From an uncultured Anaerolineales bacterium (GTDB lineage: Bacteria; Chloroflexota; Anaerolineae; Aggregatilineales; Aggregatilineaceae), in assembly GCA_937135955.1 (NCBI GenBank), contig CAKZOB010000079.1, positions 1 to 64,000 on the forward strand: a stretch of 64,000 nt of DNA, given 5' to 3'. How positions within the stretch are numbered: position 1 is the stretch's first letter; each line of letters begins with the position of its first letter. The notes under the pieces were generated by a model. It searched no databases. It was not told the DNA's origin and saw nothing but the letters and a program-made list of their open reading frames with translations. Both the position numbers and the translations under genes were made by a program. Below, piece by piece: positions 63 through 8,277 of this stretch.

Positions 63-2135
63 ATGACCGTGTATTTCGTCGAAGGGCCAGCCGGCACAGG
101 CAAGACAACGCGCGGCGTCGGTTACGTTCGCGAGTTGCTGAATGCAGGGGTCAGCGGCGATCAAATACTGATTCTCCTGCCGCATCGTACCCTGGGCTGG
201 CCCTACTACCGCGCCTTCTCGGCTTCTGACTGGCCGCCGGGCACCGCCATTGATATCGTGACCCTCGGTGGACTGGCCCGCCGCAGTCTGGAAGTCTTCT
301 GGCCGCTTGTGTGGCAACCTGCCGGTTTCACCGACCCGACTCGTGAACCGCTCTTTCTAACCATTGAGACAGCGCAGTACTTTATGGCCCGACTGGTGCT
401 GGAAGCTCAGAAGACCGGGGTCTTCGATAGCGTCTCCGTGACCGCTTTCGAGATCATGCGTCAGACGCTCGACAATCTTTCCAAGGCCGCCATGAATCAG
501 CTTTCTCTGGACACCGTCGCCGAACGCCTGATCGCGGCCTGGGGAGACCGCCATTCGAGCCGCCCGCCTGTTTATCGCGCCTGCCTGGAGATCGCCAAGC
601 GCTTCCGGGAACTCTGCCTGCGGTATAGCCTGCTCGACTTCTCGTTGCAGATCGAAGTCTTCATGACGCATCTGCTGCGCGAGCCGCTCTTCGAGCACTA
701 CATCCGCAGCCGTTACCGTCACCTGATCGCCGACAACCTGGAGGAGAACTTCCCCCTGGTAGAAGATTTCATCCGCTGGTTGTTGCCCAGCTTGGATTCC
801 GCGCTCTTCCTCTATGATCACGACGGGGGTTTTCGCCTGTTCCTGGGTGCTGATCCGGCTGGCATGTACCGCTTGTCTGAGGTTGCCGACGAACGCGAAA
901 TCTGGAGGGAGCCGATCGGCACATCTCCGGCGATGGCCGCTCTGGCCGATTCGCTGTCGGCCATTTTGTCCGGCAATTCCGCGCCTCTGGCCATCGCTGC
1001 TGATCCGGGTGAACAGCCCCTCGTGATTCACTCCACTCGCTTCTTCCCACAGATGGTTGACTGGGTCGTGGACCAGGTGACCGCGCTGGTGCGAGCAGGG
1101 GTGAGTCCGCGCGAAATCGTGATCGTTGCGCCGTACATGAGCGACGCGCTACGCTTCTCGCTGGCCACTCGTCTGGAAGAACACGGTGTGCCAGTAGTAT
1201 CGCACCGACCGTCGCGTGCGCTACGCGAAGAACCCGCGGCGCGCGTCATCCTCACCCTGACAGCACTGGCACATCCACACTGGGGCTTCACCCCGTCAGT
1301 ACAGGACGTTGCCGGTGTGCTGCATCGCGCCATCGCCGGCCTTGATCCTGTACGCGCCTGGCTGCTAGCGCGGATCGTCTATCGTCCTGGCCGTGCCGAA
1401 CTGGGCAGCTTTGATAACATTCAGCCCCCTACTCAGCAACGCATCTCCTACCTGGCCGGAGAGCGCTACGAACAGCTACGCGCCTGGCTGATGGAATACT
1501 CCTGCAACGACCTCGGCCAGATTCCGCCCGATCATTTCTTCAGCCGGCTCTTCGGGGAAGTGCTTTCCCAGCCCGAATTCGGCTTTCATGCCGACCCGGA
1601 GGCCGGGCGCATTGTCGCCGAACTTGTCGAATCGGCGCGTCGCTTCCGCCAGGCTCTCTATCCCGATGGCGTTGAAGAAAGTTGGGATGCCGTCAGCCGC
1701 GAGTATTACGAGCTGGTGCGCCAGGGCTTGCTCGGTGCGCTCTATGTCACCAGTTGGCAGGACGAGCAGCGCGATGCCGTCTTTCTGGCTCCCGCCTACA
1801 CCTTTCTGATGCGCAACCGCTGGACCGACTATCAGTTTTGGCTCGATGTCGGCAGCACTTCCTGGTGGGAGCGCCTGGAACAACCGCTGACTCATCCTTA
1901 CGTCCTGTCCAGGAATTATCCCGCCGATCAGGTCTGGACGGATAGCATGGAGGTTGCAGCGCGCGACGATGCATTGCGCCGCCTGATCGCGGGCCTGGTA
2001 CGCCGGTGTCGGCGACGGGTGTACGCTGCTATCGCTGAGCTAGGCGAGCAGGGCTACGAGCAGCGCGGCCCACTCCTCCGTGTGTTGCAGCAATTACAGC
2101 AACAGCAACCGTTGTCTTGGGGAGGCTCCGCATGA
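63..2135 (+). CDS. AddB-like P-loop (inactivated helicase-type) recombination protein
   Basis: 690 aa. It opens with a Walker A loop, GPAGTGKTT at residues 8-16. Further on there is a degenerate acidic motif (LIADNLEENFP, about residue 220) where helicases have their Walker B, and a motif IV-like stretch (EIVIVAPYMSDALRFSL, about 350). I find no clear motifs V and VI, so it looks like the AddB/RecC class: a superfamily 1 fold that may bind ATP but is not a complete helicase. No nuclease domain is present; that function sits two genes downstream. GAGGG at 51-55 is a suitable ribosome binding site for this ATG. The stop overlaps the next start by ATGA, which implies translational coupling with the UvrD-like gene. 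The role in end resection is inferred from context and the weak helicase signature; the AddB assignment is less certain than the P-loop. Confidence 0.7.
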   Translation: MTVYFVEGPAGTGKTTRGVGYVRELLNAGVSGDQILILLPHRTLGWPYYRAFSASDWPPGTAIDIVTLGGLARRSLEVFWPLVWQPAGFTDPTREPLFLTIETAQYFMARLVLEAQKTGVFDSVSVTAFEIMRQTLDNLSKAAMNQLSLDTVAERLIAAWGDRHSSRPPVYRACLEIAKRFRELCLRYSLLDFSLQIEVFMTHLLREPLFEHYIRSRYRHLIADNLEENFPLVEDFIRWLLPSLDSALFLYDHDGGFRLFLGADPAGMYRLSEVADEREIWREPIGTSPAMAALADSLSAILSGNSAPLAIAADPGEQPLVIHSTRFFPQMVDWVVDQVTALVRAGVSPREIVIVAPYMSDALRFSLATRLEEHGVPVVSHRPSRALREEPAARVILTLTALAHPHWGFTPSVQDVAGVLHRAIAGLDPVRAWLLARIVYRPGRAELGSFDNIQPPTQQRISYLAGERYEQLRAWLMEYSCNDLGQIPPDHFFSRLFGEVLSQPEFGFHADPEAGRIVAELVESARRFRQALYPDGVEESWDAVSREYYELVRQGLLGALYVTSWQDEQRDAVFLAPAYTFLMRNRWTDYQFWLDVGSTSWWERLEQPLTHPYVLSRNYPADQVWTDSMEVAARDDALRRLIAGLVRRCRRRVYAAIAELGEQGYEQRGPLLRVLQQLQQQQPLSWGGSA

Positions 2136-4471
2136 GCGCTGAGACCGTGTCGTTTCGTCTCCGCCCAGAGCAAGAGGAGATCGTCTACAAGTATCGCGGT
2201 GGCAAACTGGGCATCGCGGCTGTCCCCGGTAGCGGCAAGACTTTCACGCTGGCCCACCTGGCTGCTCGCCTGATCTACACGGGCCAGGTCGGCCCCGACC
2301 AGGAAGTGCTCATCGTTACCTTCACCAATTCAGCAGTGAACAGTTTCCGCGCGCGCATTGCCCAGATTCTCACCCAGGACTATCACCTGATCGGGCATGT
2401 AGGCTATCGAGTGCGCACCTTGCATGGCCTGGCGCGCGACATCATTCACGAGCGTCCGGCACTGGTCGGCCTCTCTGGGGACTTTCTCATCCTGGATGAA
2501 AAGGAAACTCAGCTTGTTCAGCACGACATCGTTGTCCAGCTTGCCGTACAGTGGCGCGAGCGGTTACAGGGGTATCTTGATCCTGCGTCTGACCCGCGCG
2601 CAGCCTGGCAGGGGCTTGAAGGAGAACTGCCTGAGCTGGTCAGCACTTTCATCCGACAGGCCAAAGACCTCCGACAGTCCCCTGCGACGCTGATGGCACT
2701 GTTGGAAGACGCACCCGCTGAATTCGAACTGGCCCGCTTTGCTGTGGCCGCGTATGCTGACTATCAGCGTAGCCTGGCCTATCGTGGCGCTGTGGATTTC
2801 GACGATTTGGTCCGGCTGGCGCTCGACGTGCTGGAAAGTGAGCCTGACTTCCTGGCCCGTCTTCAGCAGCGCTGGCCCTTCGTGTTGGAAGACGAAGCCC
2901 AGGATAGTTCGCGCCTGCAAGAAGAGATGTTGCGCCTCTTGAGTGGGGAGCGCAACTGGGTGCGCGTCGGCGATCCTAACCAGGCCATCTACACCACTTT
3001 CACTACAGCCAATCCTGGTTTCCTGCGTCGTTTCCTCGATCGCGAGGACGTGGACGAAAAGCCACTATCTGTATCTGGGCGCTCAGCAGCTCCGATCATT
3101 GATCTGGCAAACGAATTGGTACGTTGGGCTACTGAAGAGCATCCCACGCCAGCCCTGCGCACTACGTTCGAATATCAACCGCATGGTCATCAGGGATCGC
3201 TGCGCGGTGTCATCCAGCCGACGAGCGCAGACGATCCCGACCCGAATCCTCCCGATGAAGAATGTCAGATCGAGTTGCGTTACTGTCCAGATGATAAGAT
3301 CTCTCCCGTAGCGGAACTGGAGCATGTGATCAACCGCAGTGCGTTACCTTTGGTAGCGCTTTTTGAGGACGATCGCCCCTCCCCCTACACAATAGCGGTG
3401 CTGGTACCGGACAACAACCGCGGTTATGCCCTGGCCGAGGAACTACGCCGTCACTATCCTCAGGTGCGTTTTGAAGAATTGCTGCGCAGCACGTCGCAGA
3501 CTCGTCAGTCTGTCGGGCGACTCATCGCCGTGCTCGAATACCTATCTCACCCCGACCATCTGCAACAGCTCAAGCAGCTTTTTTGGACTCACCTTTCCGA
3601 CGAACGTCGCGACCTGGTGCGTGCTGAAACGGACATTTCCGCCGCTCTGTCGGCGTACTTCAAGTCGGTGCCCACTGTCGAACAACTGCTGTGGCCCGAT
3701 GATCCAGGCAATCAGCCCTCTCTGCCAGAGTTGCCGGAAGCCTATCGCTGGATAGCGGATGAACTGGAACGCTTCCGCTTCAACGTTCGCCGCTGGCTGC
3801 GCCTGACGGATCTCCCCATTGATCAGCTTGTCCTGACCATTTCTCAGGACCTTTTCGACACGCCCGCCGATCTCGCTCTGGGGCACAAGGTGGCCGTGAC
3901 GCTACGCGCCCTCGCCAATTCTCATCCGGATTGGCGACTGGCGGAGTTCGTGGCCGAGTTGACCGCGATCAACAAGAATCAGCGCCGCTTTCTGGGCTTC
4001 GACGATGACGAGGCCGGTTATGCTCCCAAACCGGGCGTTGTGACCATCGCCACCATGCACGCAGCTAAGGGCCTGGAGTGGGATCGTGTCTATCTGTTGT
4101 CCGTGAGCAACTACGATTTTCCCTCTGCCATGCCCTACGATTCCTACCGTGATGAACGCTGGTTCGTGCGTTATGTTCCGGATGGCGGCAACCTTCGGCT
4201 GAATCTCGGGGCCGAATTGTTGGCGCAACTGGATCACCTGGTTGGCAGGCTGCCTGTCTACCGGGAAGGAGAGGCAACCCAGCGGGCGCGCATTGAGTAC
4301 GCCTGTGAACGGCTGCGTCTGCTGTATGTGGGCATCACGCGGGCCAGGCGCGAGGTGATCATTTCGTGGAACATGGGACGCTATGCCCATAAGGGTCCTG
4401 CCTACGAGAATCGGCCTGCTCTCCCGCTGATCCATCTGGGCTATTACGTAGACGGTCGCTATTGGGAGTAA
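2132..4471 (+). CDS. UvrD/AddA-like superfamily 1 DNA helicase
   Basis: 779 aa ATP-dependent 3'-5' DNA helicase of the UvrD/RecB/AddA type. Visible motifs in order: Q motif RPEQEEIV (about 11-18), Walker A VPGSGKT (31-37), Walker B DEAQD (about 254-258), motif III VGDPNQAIY, motif V ATMHAAKGLEWDRVYLL, and motif VI LYVGITRARRE near the C-terminus. There is no C-terminal PD-(D/E)XK nuclease, unlike true AddA or RecB; the nuclease is the next gene. An in-frame ATG 15 bases upstream exists, but the ATG at 2132 overlaps the previous stop and is preceded by GGGGAGG at 2119-2125, so it is preferred. With its neighbours it probably forms a double-strand-end processing complex; that role is inference. 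Confidence 0.9.
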   Translation: MSAETVSFRLRPEQEEIVYKYRGGKLGIAAVPGSGKTFTLAHLAARLIYTGQVGPDQEVLIVTFTNSAVNSFRARIAQILTQDYHLIGHVGYRVRTLHGLARDIIHERPALVGLSGDFLILDEKETQLVQHDIVVQLAVQWRERLQGYLDPASDPRAAWQGLEGELPELVSTFIRQAKDLRQSPATLMALLEDAPAEFELARFAVAAYADYQRSLAYRGAVDFDDLVRLALDVLESEPDFLARLQQRWPFVLEDEAQDSSRLQEEMLRLLSGERNWVRVGDPNQAIYTTFTTANPGFLRRFLDREDVDEKPLSVSGRSAAPIIDLANELVRWATEEHPTPALRTTFEYQPHGHQGSLRGVIQPTSADDPDPNPPDEECQIELRYCPDDKISPVAELEHVINRSALPLVALFEDDRPSPYTIAVLVPDNNRGYALAEELRRHYPQVRFEELLRSTSQTRQSVGRLIAVLEYLSHPDHLQQLKQLFWTHLSDERRDLVRAETDISAALSAYFKSVPTVEQLLWPDDPGNQPSLPELPEAYRWIADELERFRFNVRRWLRLTDLPIDQLVLTISQDLFDTPADLALGHKVAVTLRALANSHPDWRLAEFVAELTAINKNQRRFLGFDDDEAGYAPKPGVVTIATMHAAKGLEWDRVYLLSVSNYDFPSAMPYDSYRDERWFVRYVPDGGNLRLNLGAELLAQLDHLVGRLPVYREGEATQRARIEYACERLRLLYVGITRARREVIISWNMGRYAHKGPAYENRPALPLIHLGYYVDGRYWE

Positions 4472-4481
4472 TGCAAGGACA

Positions 4482-5324
4482 ATGCCTATGTTGCTGCCAG
4501 AGGGTTTCGCTTTCACACAGGCCAGTTTGCAGGATTACGCGGACTGTCCGCGCCGTTTTCAGTTGCGCTACGTTGTCAACCAGCGCTGGCCAGCCGTAGA
4601 AGCCGAACCGCTGTTTGAGCACGAGCTTTCAGTGCGCCGCGGTGAGCGCTTTCACCGGCTCGTGGAGCGCCATCAGCTTGGCGTGCCGACCTCTCAGCTA
4701 GAGATTCTGCTGGGAACCGATCCCACAGTGCGTGGCTGGTGGCAGGAGTATCTGGGTTTCGCCTTTCTGCACAGTCTGTCCGGTAACCGCTATCCGGAGT
4801 TGCGGCTGAGCGCAGACCTCGGCGGCGCGAGGGTGGTTGCTGCGCTCGATCTGCTGGTGGTGCAGCCGGGCTATCACGTGTATATCTTTGACTGGAAGAC
4901 GCACGCACCTGTGCCCCGCGCCGGCTGGCTGCGCGAGCGGGTGCAGACGACGTTGTATCTGTGGATGGTGGCGGAAGTGGGGCCAGCTTTGTTCGGAGAA
5001 TGGGTGGAGCCAGAGCGAATCAGTATGATCTACTGGTTCACAGCCGCCCCTGAGGCTCCCTTGCGCTTCGATTACTCCTCCGCTTGGCGTGTCGAAAGCG
5101 GAGCGCGTCTGGCGGGGTTGGTTGGTGAAGTTCTGGCCGGGGATCAGCGTCTCACTTGGCCGCTGACAGCGGAGCAGCGGCGTTGTCGGCACTGTGTGTT
5201 TCGGTCGTTGTGTGCGCGTGGGGTTGTGGCGGGGTCGCTGGCGGAGCTTGGGGTTGGCGTTGATGGCGAGCGGGACTTTTTGCTTGCGGCGTTGTTTGAG
5301 GCAGTGGATGAGGTGGGTTTTTAG
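4482..5324 (+). CDS. Stand-alone PD-(D/E)XK nuclease with AddB-type Fe-S cysteines
   Basis: 280 aa, the size of the nuclease domain of AddB or RecB alone. C22 lies in DYADCPRRF, and C235, C238 and C244 lie in CRHCVFRSLC; this one-plus-three spacing is that of the iron-sulfur cluster that staples the AddB nuclease. Between them is the catalytic core: AALDLLV, then FDWKT (the D-x-K signature), then QTTLYLW, a QxxxY motif. Family knowledge says such domains cut single-stranded DNA behind a helicase. AAGGA at 4475-4479 fits the ATG. It starts 10 bases after the helicase stop and ends directly before recJ. The split of an AddB-like protein into two genes on either side of the helicase is unusual. 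Confidence 0.88.
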   Translation: MPMLLPEGFAFTQASLQDYADCPRRFQLRYVVNQRWPAVEAEPLFEHELSVRRGERFHRLVERHQLGVPTSQLEILLGTDPTVRGWWQEYLGFAFLHSLSGNRYPELRLSADLGGARVVAALDLLVVQPGYHVYIFDWKTHAPVPRAGWLRERVQTTLYLWMVAEVGPALFGEWVEPERISMIYWFTAAPEAPLRFDYSSAWRVESGARLAGLVGEVLAGDQRLTWPLTAEQRRCRHCVFRSLCARGVVAGSLAELGVGVDGERDFLLAALFEAVDEVGF

Positions 5325-7697
5325 GTGAATGACTATACGAAATTCTCGACCTGGGAAATTCTCCCGGCGGACGAAGCGCGCGCTCACTCTCTCTTCCCAG
5401 GATTACCTCTTCACCCCCTCGTGGCGAGCCTGCTGGCTGCACGAGGCATTACCACCCCTGCGGCTGCCCAGGGGTTTATGGACCCCCGTTTCTACCGCCC
5501 CACCCTCGCCGACGAGTTACCGGATTTGCCGCAGGCCATAGAGCTATTGCAAAGGATCGTCAGCCAGCAACTGCCGGTTTTGGTTTGGGGTGATTTCGAT
5601 GTAGACGGACAAACGGCGACAGCGTTGCTGGTCAGCGTTCTGGGAGCCTTGCACGTACCGGTTGCCTTCTACATCCCCAACCGGCTTGATGAATCGCATG
5701 GGATTCAACTCGCCACTCTCCGCCAACAGTTAGAACAATTCTCCCCTGCCCTGCTGCTCACCTGCGACACAGGCGTTGCAGCGCATAGGGCTATTGACTA
5801 TGCGAAACGGCAGGGAGTGGCAGTCATCATCACCGATCATCACGATCTGCCGCCTGTCTTACCCCAGGCCGACGCGATCATCAATCCCAAGCGTCTGCCG
5901 CCCGATCATCCGCTTGCCACACTGCCCGGTGTAGGCGTTGCCTATAAACTGTGCGAGAGTCTGCTGGCCCATCTCGGCCAACCGTTGACCAGTACAGAAC
6001 TGACCGATCTGACCGCGCTGGGCATTGTGGCCGATGTCGCTGCTCTGCGGGGTGACACGCGCTACCTGCTGCAAATCGGGCTGGCTCAGCTTCGCCGCAA
6101 TCAACGCCCTGGGCTGAGCGCTCTTTACCGCCTGGCCCAGCTTGACCCACAACATCTCACTGAGACGCACGTCGCCTTCCAGATCGCCCCGCGCTTGAAC
6201 GCCGCTGGTCGCCTGGACGACGCCCGTCTAGTAGTGGAACTGCTCACCACCGCCGACGAAGAGCAGGCACAGACTCTGGCCTTGCGCCTGGACGGACTGA
6301 ATCGCCAGCGCCAGCTCTACGAGCGCCAGATTCTCGCTGCCGCTCAATCGCAAATCGAACAAGATTCATCTCTGCTCAACTGGAACGCCCTGGTCTTGCA
6401 CAACCCTAATTGGCATCCGGGCGTTCTGGGTATCGTAGCCAACCGCCTAGCTTCGCTCTACCAGCGTCCGGTGATATTGCTGGCCTCCAGTGGAGATGTG
6501 GCCCGTGGTTCTGCTCGCTCGGCGGGGGGCTACGACATTCACGCTGCCATCGCCGTTCAGGCTGATCTGTTGCTCTCCTTCGGTGGACATCCGGGCGCAG
6601 CAGGACTCGCCTTGCCTGTGGCAAATATCCCTGCTTTTCGCCGCCGTCTTTCCGACACGCTGGCCGCTATGCCAGCAGCCGAAGACCGCATCAGCCTGAC
6701 CGTTGAGGCCGTCGTGCGCCTGGACGAGGTCACCCTTGATCTGGCCCGCGTTCTGGAACAACTCGCCCCTTTTGGCGAGGGCAATCCCCGCCCGATCCTG
6801 GCCTGCGAGCGCCTCTCTCTGCTCAACGCCACTTTTCTGGGCAGAGAGCAGGAACACCGCCGCCTGTCTGTGACCGATGAACACGGCAACCGCCGCGACG
6901 TTCTGTGGTGGAATAGCGCTGCAGCTTCCCTGCCCACGGGCATCTTTGACCTGGCCTTTCAGGTTGAAGTCAGCCACTACCGCGACCAGCCAGAACTACA
7001 GCTTACGCTTGTAGATTTCCGACCATCACCCACCGAAACTGTCGCCGTACCCACGCCTGCCCGCCAGATCCTTGATCGGAGACTCGCGCCCCAGCCCCTG
7101 CTCGAACTGAGCGCCCTGCGTAGTGCTTATCCAGATGCCGTGACTTGGGCTGAAGGGTACCGCCGCAGTGAAGCGCCGGGCGTCCCTCTTTCGGCATTGT
7201 GTCCTGCTCAGACGCTCATCATCTATACTGCACCTTGCGGTCCCAACGCCTTGTCGCAGGCCATGCAACAGGTCAGTCCGGCACGCGTCATTCTGTTCGG
7301 CGTGGATCCGCCGCTCACCAAAGCCGATGCTATCCTCCGCCGCATCCTGGAACTGGTCAAGTATGTTATGGCCCGGCAAGGCGGATTGGCAGCGCTGGGA
7401 CAACTGGCTGAGGCAGTCGCTCAGCCGGAGCGTGTGATCCGGCTGGCGCTGCGCTATGCTCAGTCCGCCAACGTGCTGACGTGGGAAGAGAGTCAGGATG
7501 GAGAGGTAAGCATCTCTCGTCCCCCTGCGGGCGTTTCGGCCACCGACGGCGATTCTGCCCTGTGGGCCGCATTTCAGGCACAGGTAGCCGAGACTTCCGC
7601 CTACCGGACTTTTTTCCGACGCGCTACGCTGGCCCAGTTGTTCCCAGAGGAAACATACGATGTCTTACCCGATTCCGGCCCAGACCGCACGTATTGA
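5325..7697 (+). CDS. recJ: Single-stranded-DNA-specific exonuclease RecJ with long C-terminal extension
   Basis: 790 aa 5'-3' single-strand DNA exonuclease acting in recombination and mismatch/base-excision repair. The DHH domain shows DFDVDG (90, 92, 94 acidic), CDTG (D148) and DHH at 171-173; the DHHA1 domain carries NWHPGVLGIVANRL and GGHPGAAG near residue 420; an OB-fold region follows to about 570. The metal-binding residues are present. The remaining 220 residues go beyond the usual 570-580 aa of bacterial RecJ and I do not recognise them, although longer RecJ forms with an extra C-terminal domain exist, for example in Deinococcus. The start is GTG immediately after the preceding TAG, so it is translationally coupled to the nuclease gene and places RecJ in the same resection operon. 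Confidence 0.93.
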   Translation: MNDYTKFSTWEILPADEARAHSLFPGLPLHPLVASLLAARGITTPAAAQGFMDPRFYRPTLADELPDLPQAIELLQRIVSQQLPVLVWGDFDVDGQTATALLVSVLGALHVPVAFYIPNRLDESHGIQLATLRQQLEQFSPALLLTCDTGVAAHRAIDYAKRQGVAVIITDHHDLPPVLPQADAIINPKRLPPDHPLATLPGVGVAYKLCESLLAHLGQPLTSTELTDLTALGIVADVAALRGDTRYLLQIGLAQLRRNQRPGLSALYRLAQLDPQHLTETHVAFQIAPRLNAAGRLDDARLVVELLTTADEEQAQTLALRLDGLNRQRQLYERQILAAAQSQIEQDSSLLNWNALVLHNPNWHPGVLGIVANRLASLYQRPVILLASSGDVARGSARSAGGYDIHAAIAVQADLLLSFGGHPGAAGLALPVANIPAFRRRLSDTLAAMPAAEDRISLTVEAVVRLDEVTLDLARVLEQLAPFGEGNPRPILACERLSLLNATFLGREQEHRRLSVTDEHGNRRDVLWWNSAAASLPTGIFDLAFQVEVSHYRDQPELQLTLVDFRPSPTETVAVPTPARQILDRRLAPQPLLELSALRSAYPDAVTWAEGYRRSEAPGVPLSALCPAQTLIIYTAPCGPNALSQAMQQVSPARVILFGVDPPLTKADAILRRILELVKYVMARQGGLAALGQLAEAVAQPERVIRLALRYAQSANVLTWEESQDGEVSISRPPAGVSATDGDSALWAAFQAQVAETSAYRTFFRRATLAQLFPEETYDVLPDSGPDRTY

Positions 7698-8277
7698 GAC
7701 CCTTGTGATCAATTCTCGCTTCATCGCCACAGCCGGTCGCGCCGACACTGTAGATGCCGCTAAGCGCTTCATCCAGGCCATTCGTGCCGAAATGCCCGAT
7801 GCCACGCATCACGTCTACGCTTTCAAGGTCGGCTATGGGAGCACTCTCATCGAGGGCATGTCGGACGACGGAGAACCATCCGGCACAGCGGGGCCGCCGG
7901 TGTTAGCCGTACTGCGCGGCGCAGACCTGGGCGATGTAGTGGTAGTTGTCACGCGTTATTTCGGTGGCACCAAGCTGGGCACCGGTGGCCTGGTACGCGC
8001 CTACAGCGACGCCGCCAGGCAGGTGCTCGCGGCGCTACCCATCGAACTCAAGATCGAAAAGAGGACGATCGGGCTGACCGTCCCCTACCACTTCTTCGAG
8101 CGAGTGCGGTTGCTGCTAGAAGCACACCGTGCGGTGATTGAAGACCAGGAATTCTCGACTGAGGTAACTCTCTATGCCACTATCCCTGCTGACCAGCTCG
8201 AGCTCCTGGCCGTCGCCGTCCAGAATCTCACTGCCGGGCAGGTCACTGTCGTCTCCCTGGACACTGCCAGACCCTGA
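7660..8277 (+). CDS. IMPACT/YigZ family protein
   Basis: 205 aa member of the UPF0029/IMPACT family. Signature elements are SRFIATAGR near residue 20, THHVYAFKVGYG, the SDDGEPSGTAG loop near residue 70 and TRYFGGTKLGTGGLVRAYSD near residue 110, followed by a C-terminal ferredoxin-like domain. The biochemical role in bacteria is not settled; the eukaryotic relative binds GCN1 and modulates translation stress signalling. The gene starts inside the last 38 bases of recJ and has AGAGGAAA at 7646-7653 as a ribosome binding site, so it is the last gene of the repair operon. No functional link with repair can be read from the sequence. Confidence 0.9.
   Translation: MSYPIPAQTARIETLVINSRFIATAGRADTVDAAKRFIQAIRAEMPDATHHVYAFKVGYGSTLIEGMSDDGEPSGTAGPPVLAVLRGADLGDVVVVVTRYFGGTKLGTGGLVRAYSDAARQVLAALPIELKIEKRTIGLTVPYHFFERVRLLLEAHRAVIEDQEFSTEVTLYATIPADQLELLAVAVQNLTAGQVTVVSLDTARP

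Follow-up and report, generated by a model that had tools for sequence, protein, structure and literature searches.

The DNA analysed here, referred to as the window, is a stretch of 64,000 nucleotides from an uncultured Anaerolineales bacterium of the Aggregatilineaceae (assembly GCA_937135955.1, contig CAKZOB010000079.1, positions 1-64,000, forward strand). The window opens with a single plus-strand gene run, P1-P2-P3-recJ-yigZ, within its first 8.3 kb, and all five open reading frames are present in the ORF listing:

P1, 63..2135, plus strand: predicted UvrD-fold pseudo-helicase of 690 aa, without a nuclease domain.
P2, 2132..4471, plus strand: intact UvrD-type SF1A helicase, without a nuclease domain.
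P3, 4482..5324, plus strand: free-standing PD-(D/E)XK (PDDEXK_1) nuclease of 280 aa.
recJ, 5325..7697, plus strand: RecJ 5'-3' exonuclease with a C-terminal extension.
yigZ, 7660..8277, plus strand: YigZ/IMPACT-family gene, the last of the run.

P2 most likely starts at the ATG at 2132, which overlaps the P1 stop as ATGA, and 10 nt separate the P2 stop from the P3 start. The recJ gene begins with a GTG at 5325, the base right after the TAG stop of P3, and is itself overlapped by yigZ over 38 nt. A sequence-only reading of this DNA had described the genes as following one another with overlaps or short gaps, and recJ as starting at the base after the nuclease stop; the coordinates bear out both descriptions. 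The contig end sits 62 nt before P1. In a relative that is 92% identical (L002) the gene upstream of P1 is divergent, and P1 therefore probably heads the operon. At the other end of the run, yigZ is missing from the Salinibacter cassette described below, and is probably not part of the machine that we propose.

P2 has the marks of a working motor. It matched PF00580 (E = 5.7e-49) and UvrD_C (E = 3.2e-16) in Pfam, its residues in motifs I, II (DEAQDS), III, V (AKGLEW) and VI (TRA) are invariant, and searches of Pfam and NCBIfam found no nuclease domain in it, as expected of the UvrD-like helicase without a nuclease that had been proposed. It falls under the cut-off of every named NCBIfam equivalog, scoring 81.6 bits against a cut-off of 707.65 for addA_Gpos and 98.3 against 696.05 for recB. 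Judged by equivalog scores and profile comparison, its nearest likeness is to PcrA/UvrD.

P1 is a different kind of protein. Its sole Pfam match was a sub-threshold one to UvrD (18 bits, cut-off 23), no nuclease domain was found in it with Pfam or NCBIfam, and the NCBIfam comparison listed no addB model. In an alignment of 37 family members, the motor residues of P1 are decayed in a conserved manner. The P-loop is intact (GPAGTGKTT, residues 8-16), with G11, G13 and K14 kept in all 37 members. Motif II reads DN-x-EE (DNLEE in the window), with D224 found in 34, N225 in 36 and E228 in 37 of the 37 members, so that another residue stands in for the glutamate of Walker B, and P1 has probably lost its motor function. 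Motif III is reduced to G-x-R-x-F-L-G-A (GGxRxFLGAD in the window), the KGLE of motif V is lost and its place taken by ...Q-F-W-L-D..., a GLxRRC stretch resembles motif VI, and between the equivalents of motifs V and VI comes a further conserved stretch, QPLTHPYVLSR. Given the P-loop, P1 may still bind ATP.

An AlphaFold2 model of P1 built from 13 sequences (pLDDT 83.8, pTM 0.78) shows a complete UvrD fold. Foldseek placed UvrD at the top by E-value, with TM-scores by query length of up to 0.68 for AdnB, up to 0.63 for AddB and about 0.57 for UvrD. With VIA-align, 616 residues of the model superposed on AddB residues 2-701 (Z 23.1, rmsd 6.1) and 616 on AdnB residues 39-809 (Z 24.7, rmsd 4.5); UvrD-type chains gave higher Z, up to 29.3, some of them over fewer residues (447). 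The model stops where the nuclease part of AddB begins, the aligned region being residues 2-701 of about 1150, and P1 thus resembles, in its predicted structure, an AddB or AdnB cut down to the helicase-like part, without the nuclease. The sequence-only reading had allowed that P1 might match an unrelated helicase family, which is not what the fold and these superpositions indicate.

Sequence profiles do not support descent of P1 from AddB: the P1 profile matched a PcrA-type profile better (E = 4e-25 over 594 columns) than that of the canonical AddB proteins of Chloroflexota (E = 4e-12, N-terminal half only). The description of P1 as a P-loop, AddB-like protein consequently holds for the P-loop and for a predicted shape like that of AddB and AdnB, but not demonstrably for ancestry, and we use "AddB-like" for shape and putative role rather than for proven descent. 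Since its profile is closer to PcrA than to AddB, P1 could also be an independent pseudo-helicase.

A few genomes carry P1 or P3 within longer frames. For P1 in G315 and G302, and for P3 in G486, we dismissed a fusion: Pfam matched only the P1 or P3 part, and the upstream part looks like an unused open frame. G604 has another long frame around P1. In G324 (L151, 7682-11143) dnaN, encoding the sliding clamp, lies directly upstream of P1 and in frame; the assembly has ambiguous bases there, and for this reason we claim no dnaN-P1 fusion.

P3 is a clear member of its superfamily, matching PF12705 with 73.8 bits against a cut-off of 22 (E = 2.8e-20). Its catalytic positions H58, E106, D123, D137-W-K139, Q155 and Y159 are invariant in 17 aligned homologs, as are cysteines C22 and C235-x2-C238-x5-C244, and the Cx2Cx5C pattern was present in 42 of 42 P3 homologs. 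The earlier account of a free-standing nuclease with the AddB Fe-S cysteine spacing was right about the stand-alone protein, and the four cysteines are conserved. We dropped the spacing as a hallmark of AddB, as the canonical AddBs that we found in Chloroflexota did not match the pattern; Cas4-type nucleases carry a related Fe-S module. That the nuclease is unlinked from both motor-type proteins, also part of that account, agrees with the lack of a nuclease domain in P1 and P2. By profile comparison P3 is much nearer to the AddB nuclease domain (E = 1.6e-11) than to its AddA counterpart (E = 0.0015). The two nucleases of AddAB divide the strands between them, that of AddB degrading the 5'-terminated one and that of AddA cutting the 3'-terminated one (PMC4824097), and P3, like RecJ, may therefore act on the 5' strand. 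The structural model of P3 is poor (pLDDT 58.6); its matches to RecE, SSO0001, ACE1 Cas4-like, MGME1 and AdnA back the PD-(D/E)XK fold and nothing finer.

RecJ scored 464.7 bits against TIGR00644, above the cut-off of 396.9. Beyond its OB domain it has a C-terminal extension of about 225 aa (residues about 565-790; window positions 7017-7697). The RecJ of the Salinibacter cassette also has this extension, weakly conserved at about 20%. In Deinococcus the C-terminal domain of RecJ binds HerA (PMC4663267).

We then asked how the genes are distributed. In a sample of 301 Chloroflexota genomes P1 was found in 31, all of the class of the window; weaker P1 matches elsewhere in the sample are other UvrD-type proteins. 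P2 was found in exactly the same 31 genomes, and a stand-alone P3 in 29 of these and in none of the 270 others; eight weaker P3 matches sit in frames as long as AddB (959-1095 aa). In a second sample, of 396 genomes of the class, P1 was present in 252 and P3 in 231: both in 218, P1 alone in 34, P3 alone in 13 and neither in 131 (Fisher p about 6e-56, a statistic that kinship among the genomes inflates). Of the 114 genomes for which the positions of both genes were listed, 50 had P3 downstream of P1 at a distance of no more than 4.5 kb and 64 had it elsewhere. The nuclease is thus free in position yet stays in the company of P1, and the genes of the set co-occur even where they are no longer neighbors.

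Loci with the P1-P2-P3-recJ order in at least seven families. f1: the window, L003, L004 and L007; f2: L155; f6: L056, L057 and L059; f84: L156; f90: L159; f110: L151; f118: L163. The order recurs with a short spacer in f124 (L160, where a single gene separates recJ from P3) and in f11 (L161, where P1 was located by the genome scan, as a longer antisense frame hides it in the ORF listing).

The possibility that the order would be absent in relatives, raised by the sequence-only reading, did not materialize in this survey of Chloroflexota, in which the order is conserved in many families. In f3 the set is dispersed and recJ unlinked, and genes outside the set differ between families. P1 and P2 are the tightest pair, found in identical sets of 31 genomes and adjacent, often overlapping, at many loci. 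Because P1/P2 adjacency and the four-gene order recur across the class, the pattern is not due to chance.

P3 is absent or beyond recognition, with P1 kept, at L062 and in genus g14 of f4 (G152, G402, G420, G485, G503, G537, G587 and G611). In G152 P1 and P2 are adjacent with no nuclease beside them, and we found no stand-in among the neighbors, which encode a nucleotidyl transferase, an acyl-CoA dehydrogenase, pentapeptide repeats and a DUF3048 protein. As P3 is missing from 34 P1-bearing genomes, and consistently from this genus, P1 and P2 can apparently work without it. Separately, a class member lacking P1 encodes an 888-aa UvrD-like protein (L127, 2419-5085) directly before a 291-aa PDDEXK_1 frame (G232:C18:41102-41776), a further unfused helicase-nuclease pair.

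The loose linkage of P3 and recJ, both frequently unlinked from P1-P2, bears on one alternative, in which P2, P3 and RecJ would belong to a RecF-pathway set and act in turn on ends or gaps, with P1 a regulator outside any AddAB-shaped complex. The likeness of P2 to PcrA/UvrD fits this, and there is precedent in D. radiodurans, which is without RecBCD and AddAB and in which the 3' tail has been proposed to be the work of UvrD and RecJ, or of an unidentified UvrD-associated exonuclease (PMC2806897). We nonetheless consider it unlikely, given that P1 and P2 are so tightly paired and that P1 has the predicted shape of AddB or AdnB.

A scan of the genome collection with P1 alone returned Chloroflexota only; other phyla were covered through plasmids. 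Searching plasmids by tblastn with P1 identified plasmid pSR56 of Salinibacter ruber M8 (40% identity over 96%), from the phylum Rhodothermota. On pSR56 (NC_014028.1; L165, 8059-17884) P1, P2, P3 and recJ are consecutive on one strand, annotated as "hypothetical protein", "ATP-dependent helicase", "PD-(D/E)XK nuclease family protein" and recJ, and each protein is 37-40% identical to its counterpart in the window. All signatures of P1 are kept: GPVGTGKTT, DNVEE, GYRKFLGAD, QFWLD, QPLTHP and GLTRRC. This cassette is the best single argument for treating the four genes as one unit, recJ included. Shortly upstream of it lies a gene for a protein with HTH and IrrE/M78 peptidase domains. A megaplasmid of Ilyobacter polytropus (Fusobacteriota; NC_014633.1; L166, 5983-7956) encodes a distant P1 relative, scoring 225.8 bits against the P1 profile, with no P2 or P3 beside it, which suggests that the pseudo-helicase family is wider than Chloroflexota. 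The phages and viral contigs that we searched contained no P1 relative.

If this were an ordinary repair neighborhood, its enzymes would be separate ones, co-transcribed without acting jointly, and the variation among families of the genes beyond the set could be expected. We regard this as very improbable, because the genes still co-occur in genomes in which they lie dispersed and because all four have moved or persisted together across phyla.

Plasmid carriage in Salinibacter also raises the idea that the set serves mainly to break down plasmid or phage DNA that enters the cell, working from its ends, and less to repair the chromosome. UvrD-nuclease fusions have been described in defense contexts (PMC5704561), and in S. 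elongatus an RSF1010 plasmid and natural transformation both benefit when uvrD, recJcy, a Cas4-like gene or the PD-(D/E)XK gene Synpcc7942_0992 is lost (PMC10653904), which is a possible parallel. Against this, the set is present almost throughout many lineages of the class and adjoins the housekeeping gene yigZ here, no PADLOC model matches P1 or RecJ, and the matches of P2 to GajB are those of a generic UvrD. A role chiefly in defense therefore strikes us as improbable, though a little less so than a mere repair neighborhood.

The genome of the window (4.28 Mb, reported as 100% complete) encodes four UvrD-domain proteins, with no frame above 810 aa, and four PDDEXK_1 proteins, with no frame above 522 aa. 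Going by these sizes, no AddAB, RecBCD or AdnAB of the usual build was seen in it, nor any UvrD-nuclease fusion. It does encode NurA away from the locus (G000:C65:43834-44676; L164), and resection could for this reason be the work of HerA-NurA; none of the five operon proteins has a NurA match in Pfam. At least six of the 30 other genomes bearing the P1-P2-P3 trio also have a canonical-looking AddAB pair or AddB, so trio and AddAB are not mutually exclusive.

Co-inheritance and co-transfer thus unite four proteins: a motor and a nuclease that both look active, a conserved dead helicase with the predicted shape of AddB/AdnB, and RecJ. The reading we favor, with a confidence only somewhat better than even, is that P1, P2 and P3 together make up an AddAB-like helicase-nuclease, divided into single proteins, that processes DNA ends for recombination, with RecJ as its co-worker. 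P2 would be the single 3'-5' motor and unwind the DNA end. P1, clamped to P2 in a putative complex, would hold or channel one strand of the DNA in the manner of AddB and RecC. P3 would be a nuclease in trans, docking on the P1-P2 core and presumably cutting the 5'-terminated strand, and RecJ would finish this strand to leave a 3' tail for RecA. Because the set has no AddA-type nuclease for the 3' strand, a destructive phase switched by Chi may be needless.

One survey found RecBCD, AddAB or AdnAB in 88% of genomes (PMC6452273), so that the remainder have none of the three. For the resection of broken DNA in such lineages this set is a conserved, co-inherited candidate, and with the part list defined, reconstitution is possible. 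If our reading is correct, AddAB-type enzymes can also occur with their motor, scanner-like dead helicase and nuclease on separate proteins, and RecJ can act as a partner and not a back-up. More tentatively, and with doubt outweighing belief, the set might constitute a further class of end-resection system besides RecBCD, AddAB, AdnAB and HerA-NurA: a core of motor and dead helicase, joined by a single detachable nuclease and by a RecJ of its own, in which both of these would act on the 5' strand to give constant 3' tails with no Chi switch, the whole being basic equipment of the class of bacteria and mobile as a cassette between phyla.

The literature that we searched, which covered few subscription journals, contained no account of the four-gene set or of a partner like P1, and the known systems each share some of its features. 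Nearest to it come the UvrD and Cas4-like gene pairs described next and the S. elongatus work cited above. Unfused pairs of UvrD and Cas4-like genes in Clostridiales (Hudaiberdiev et al. 2017, PMC5704561) likewise place a UvrD-like helicase and a PF12705 nuclease in one predicted operon, but neither a pseudo-helicase partner nor recJ is described there. Deinococcus UvrD-RecJ (PMC2806897) and RecJ-HerA (PMC4663267) resemble the set in tying a UvrD-type helicase and RecJ to end resection, and in the C-terminal extension of RecJ, whereas a P1-type or P3-type partner is not described for them. HerA-NurA differs in its nuclease, as the P1-P2-P3-recJ locus encodes no NurA. RecBCD also joins an active RecB-type motor to a dead helicase (RecC) and has a single active nuclease; the RecB nuclease is fused to the motor, unlike the separate one here, and the operon has no gene for a RecD motor. 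With actinobacterial AdnAB the likeness lies in the full-length superposition of the P1 model on the helicase part of AdnB, but AdnA and AdnB both have nuclease domains and P1 and P2 do not.

AddAB invites the closest comparison. It too pairs one active SF1A motor with one inactivated UvrD-fold partner, a pairing indicated here by linkage and co-occurrence, and the inactive helicase domains of AddB and RecC are without most motifs (PMC4824097). P3 likewise belongs to the RecB/AddB superfamily of PD-(D/E)XK nucleases and has four conserved cysteines. AddAB also has a latch insertion in domain 2A of AddB and recognizes Chi; the QPLTHPYVLSR stretch of P1 may or may not correspond to the latch. 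In contrast, AddA and AddB each have a C-terminal nuclease domain and neither P1 nor P2 has one, the single nuclease here stands alone as a protein of 280 aa, the operon includes recJ, and P1 and P2 reach no AddA or AddB equivalog cut-off. With both C-terminal nucleases missing, the set is no member of AddAB.
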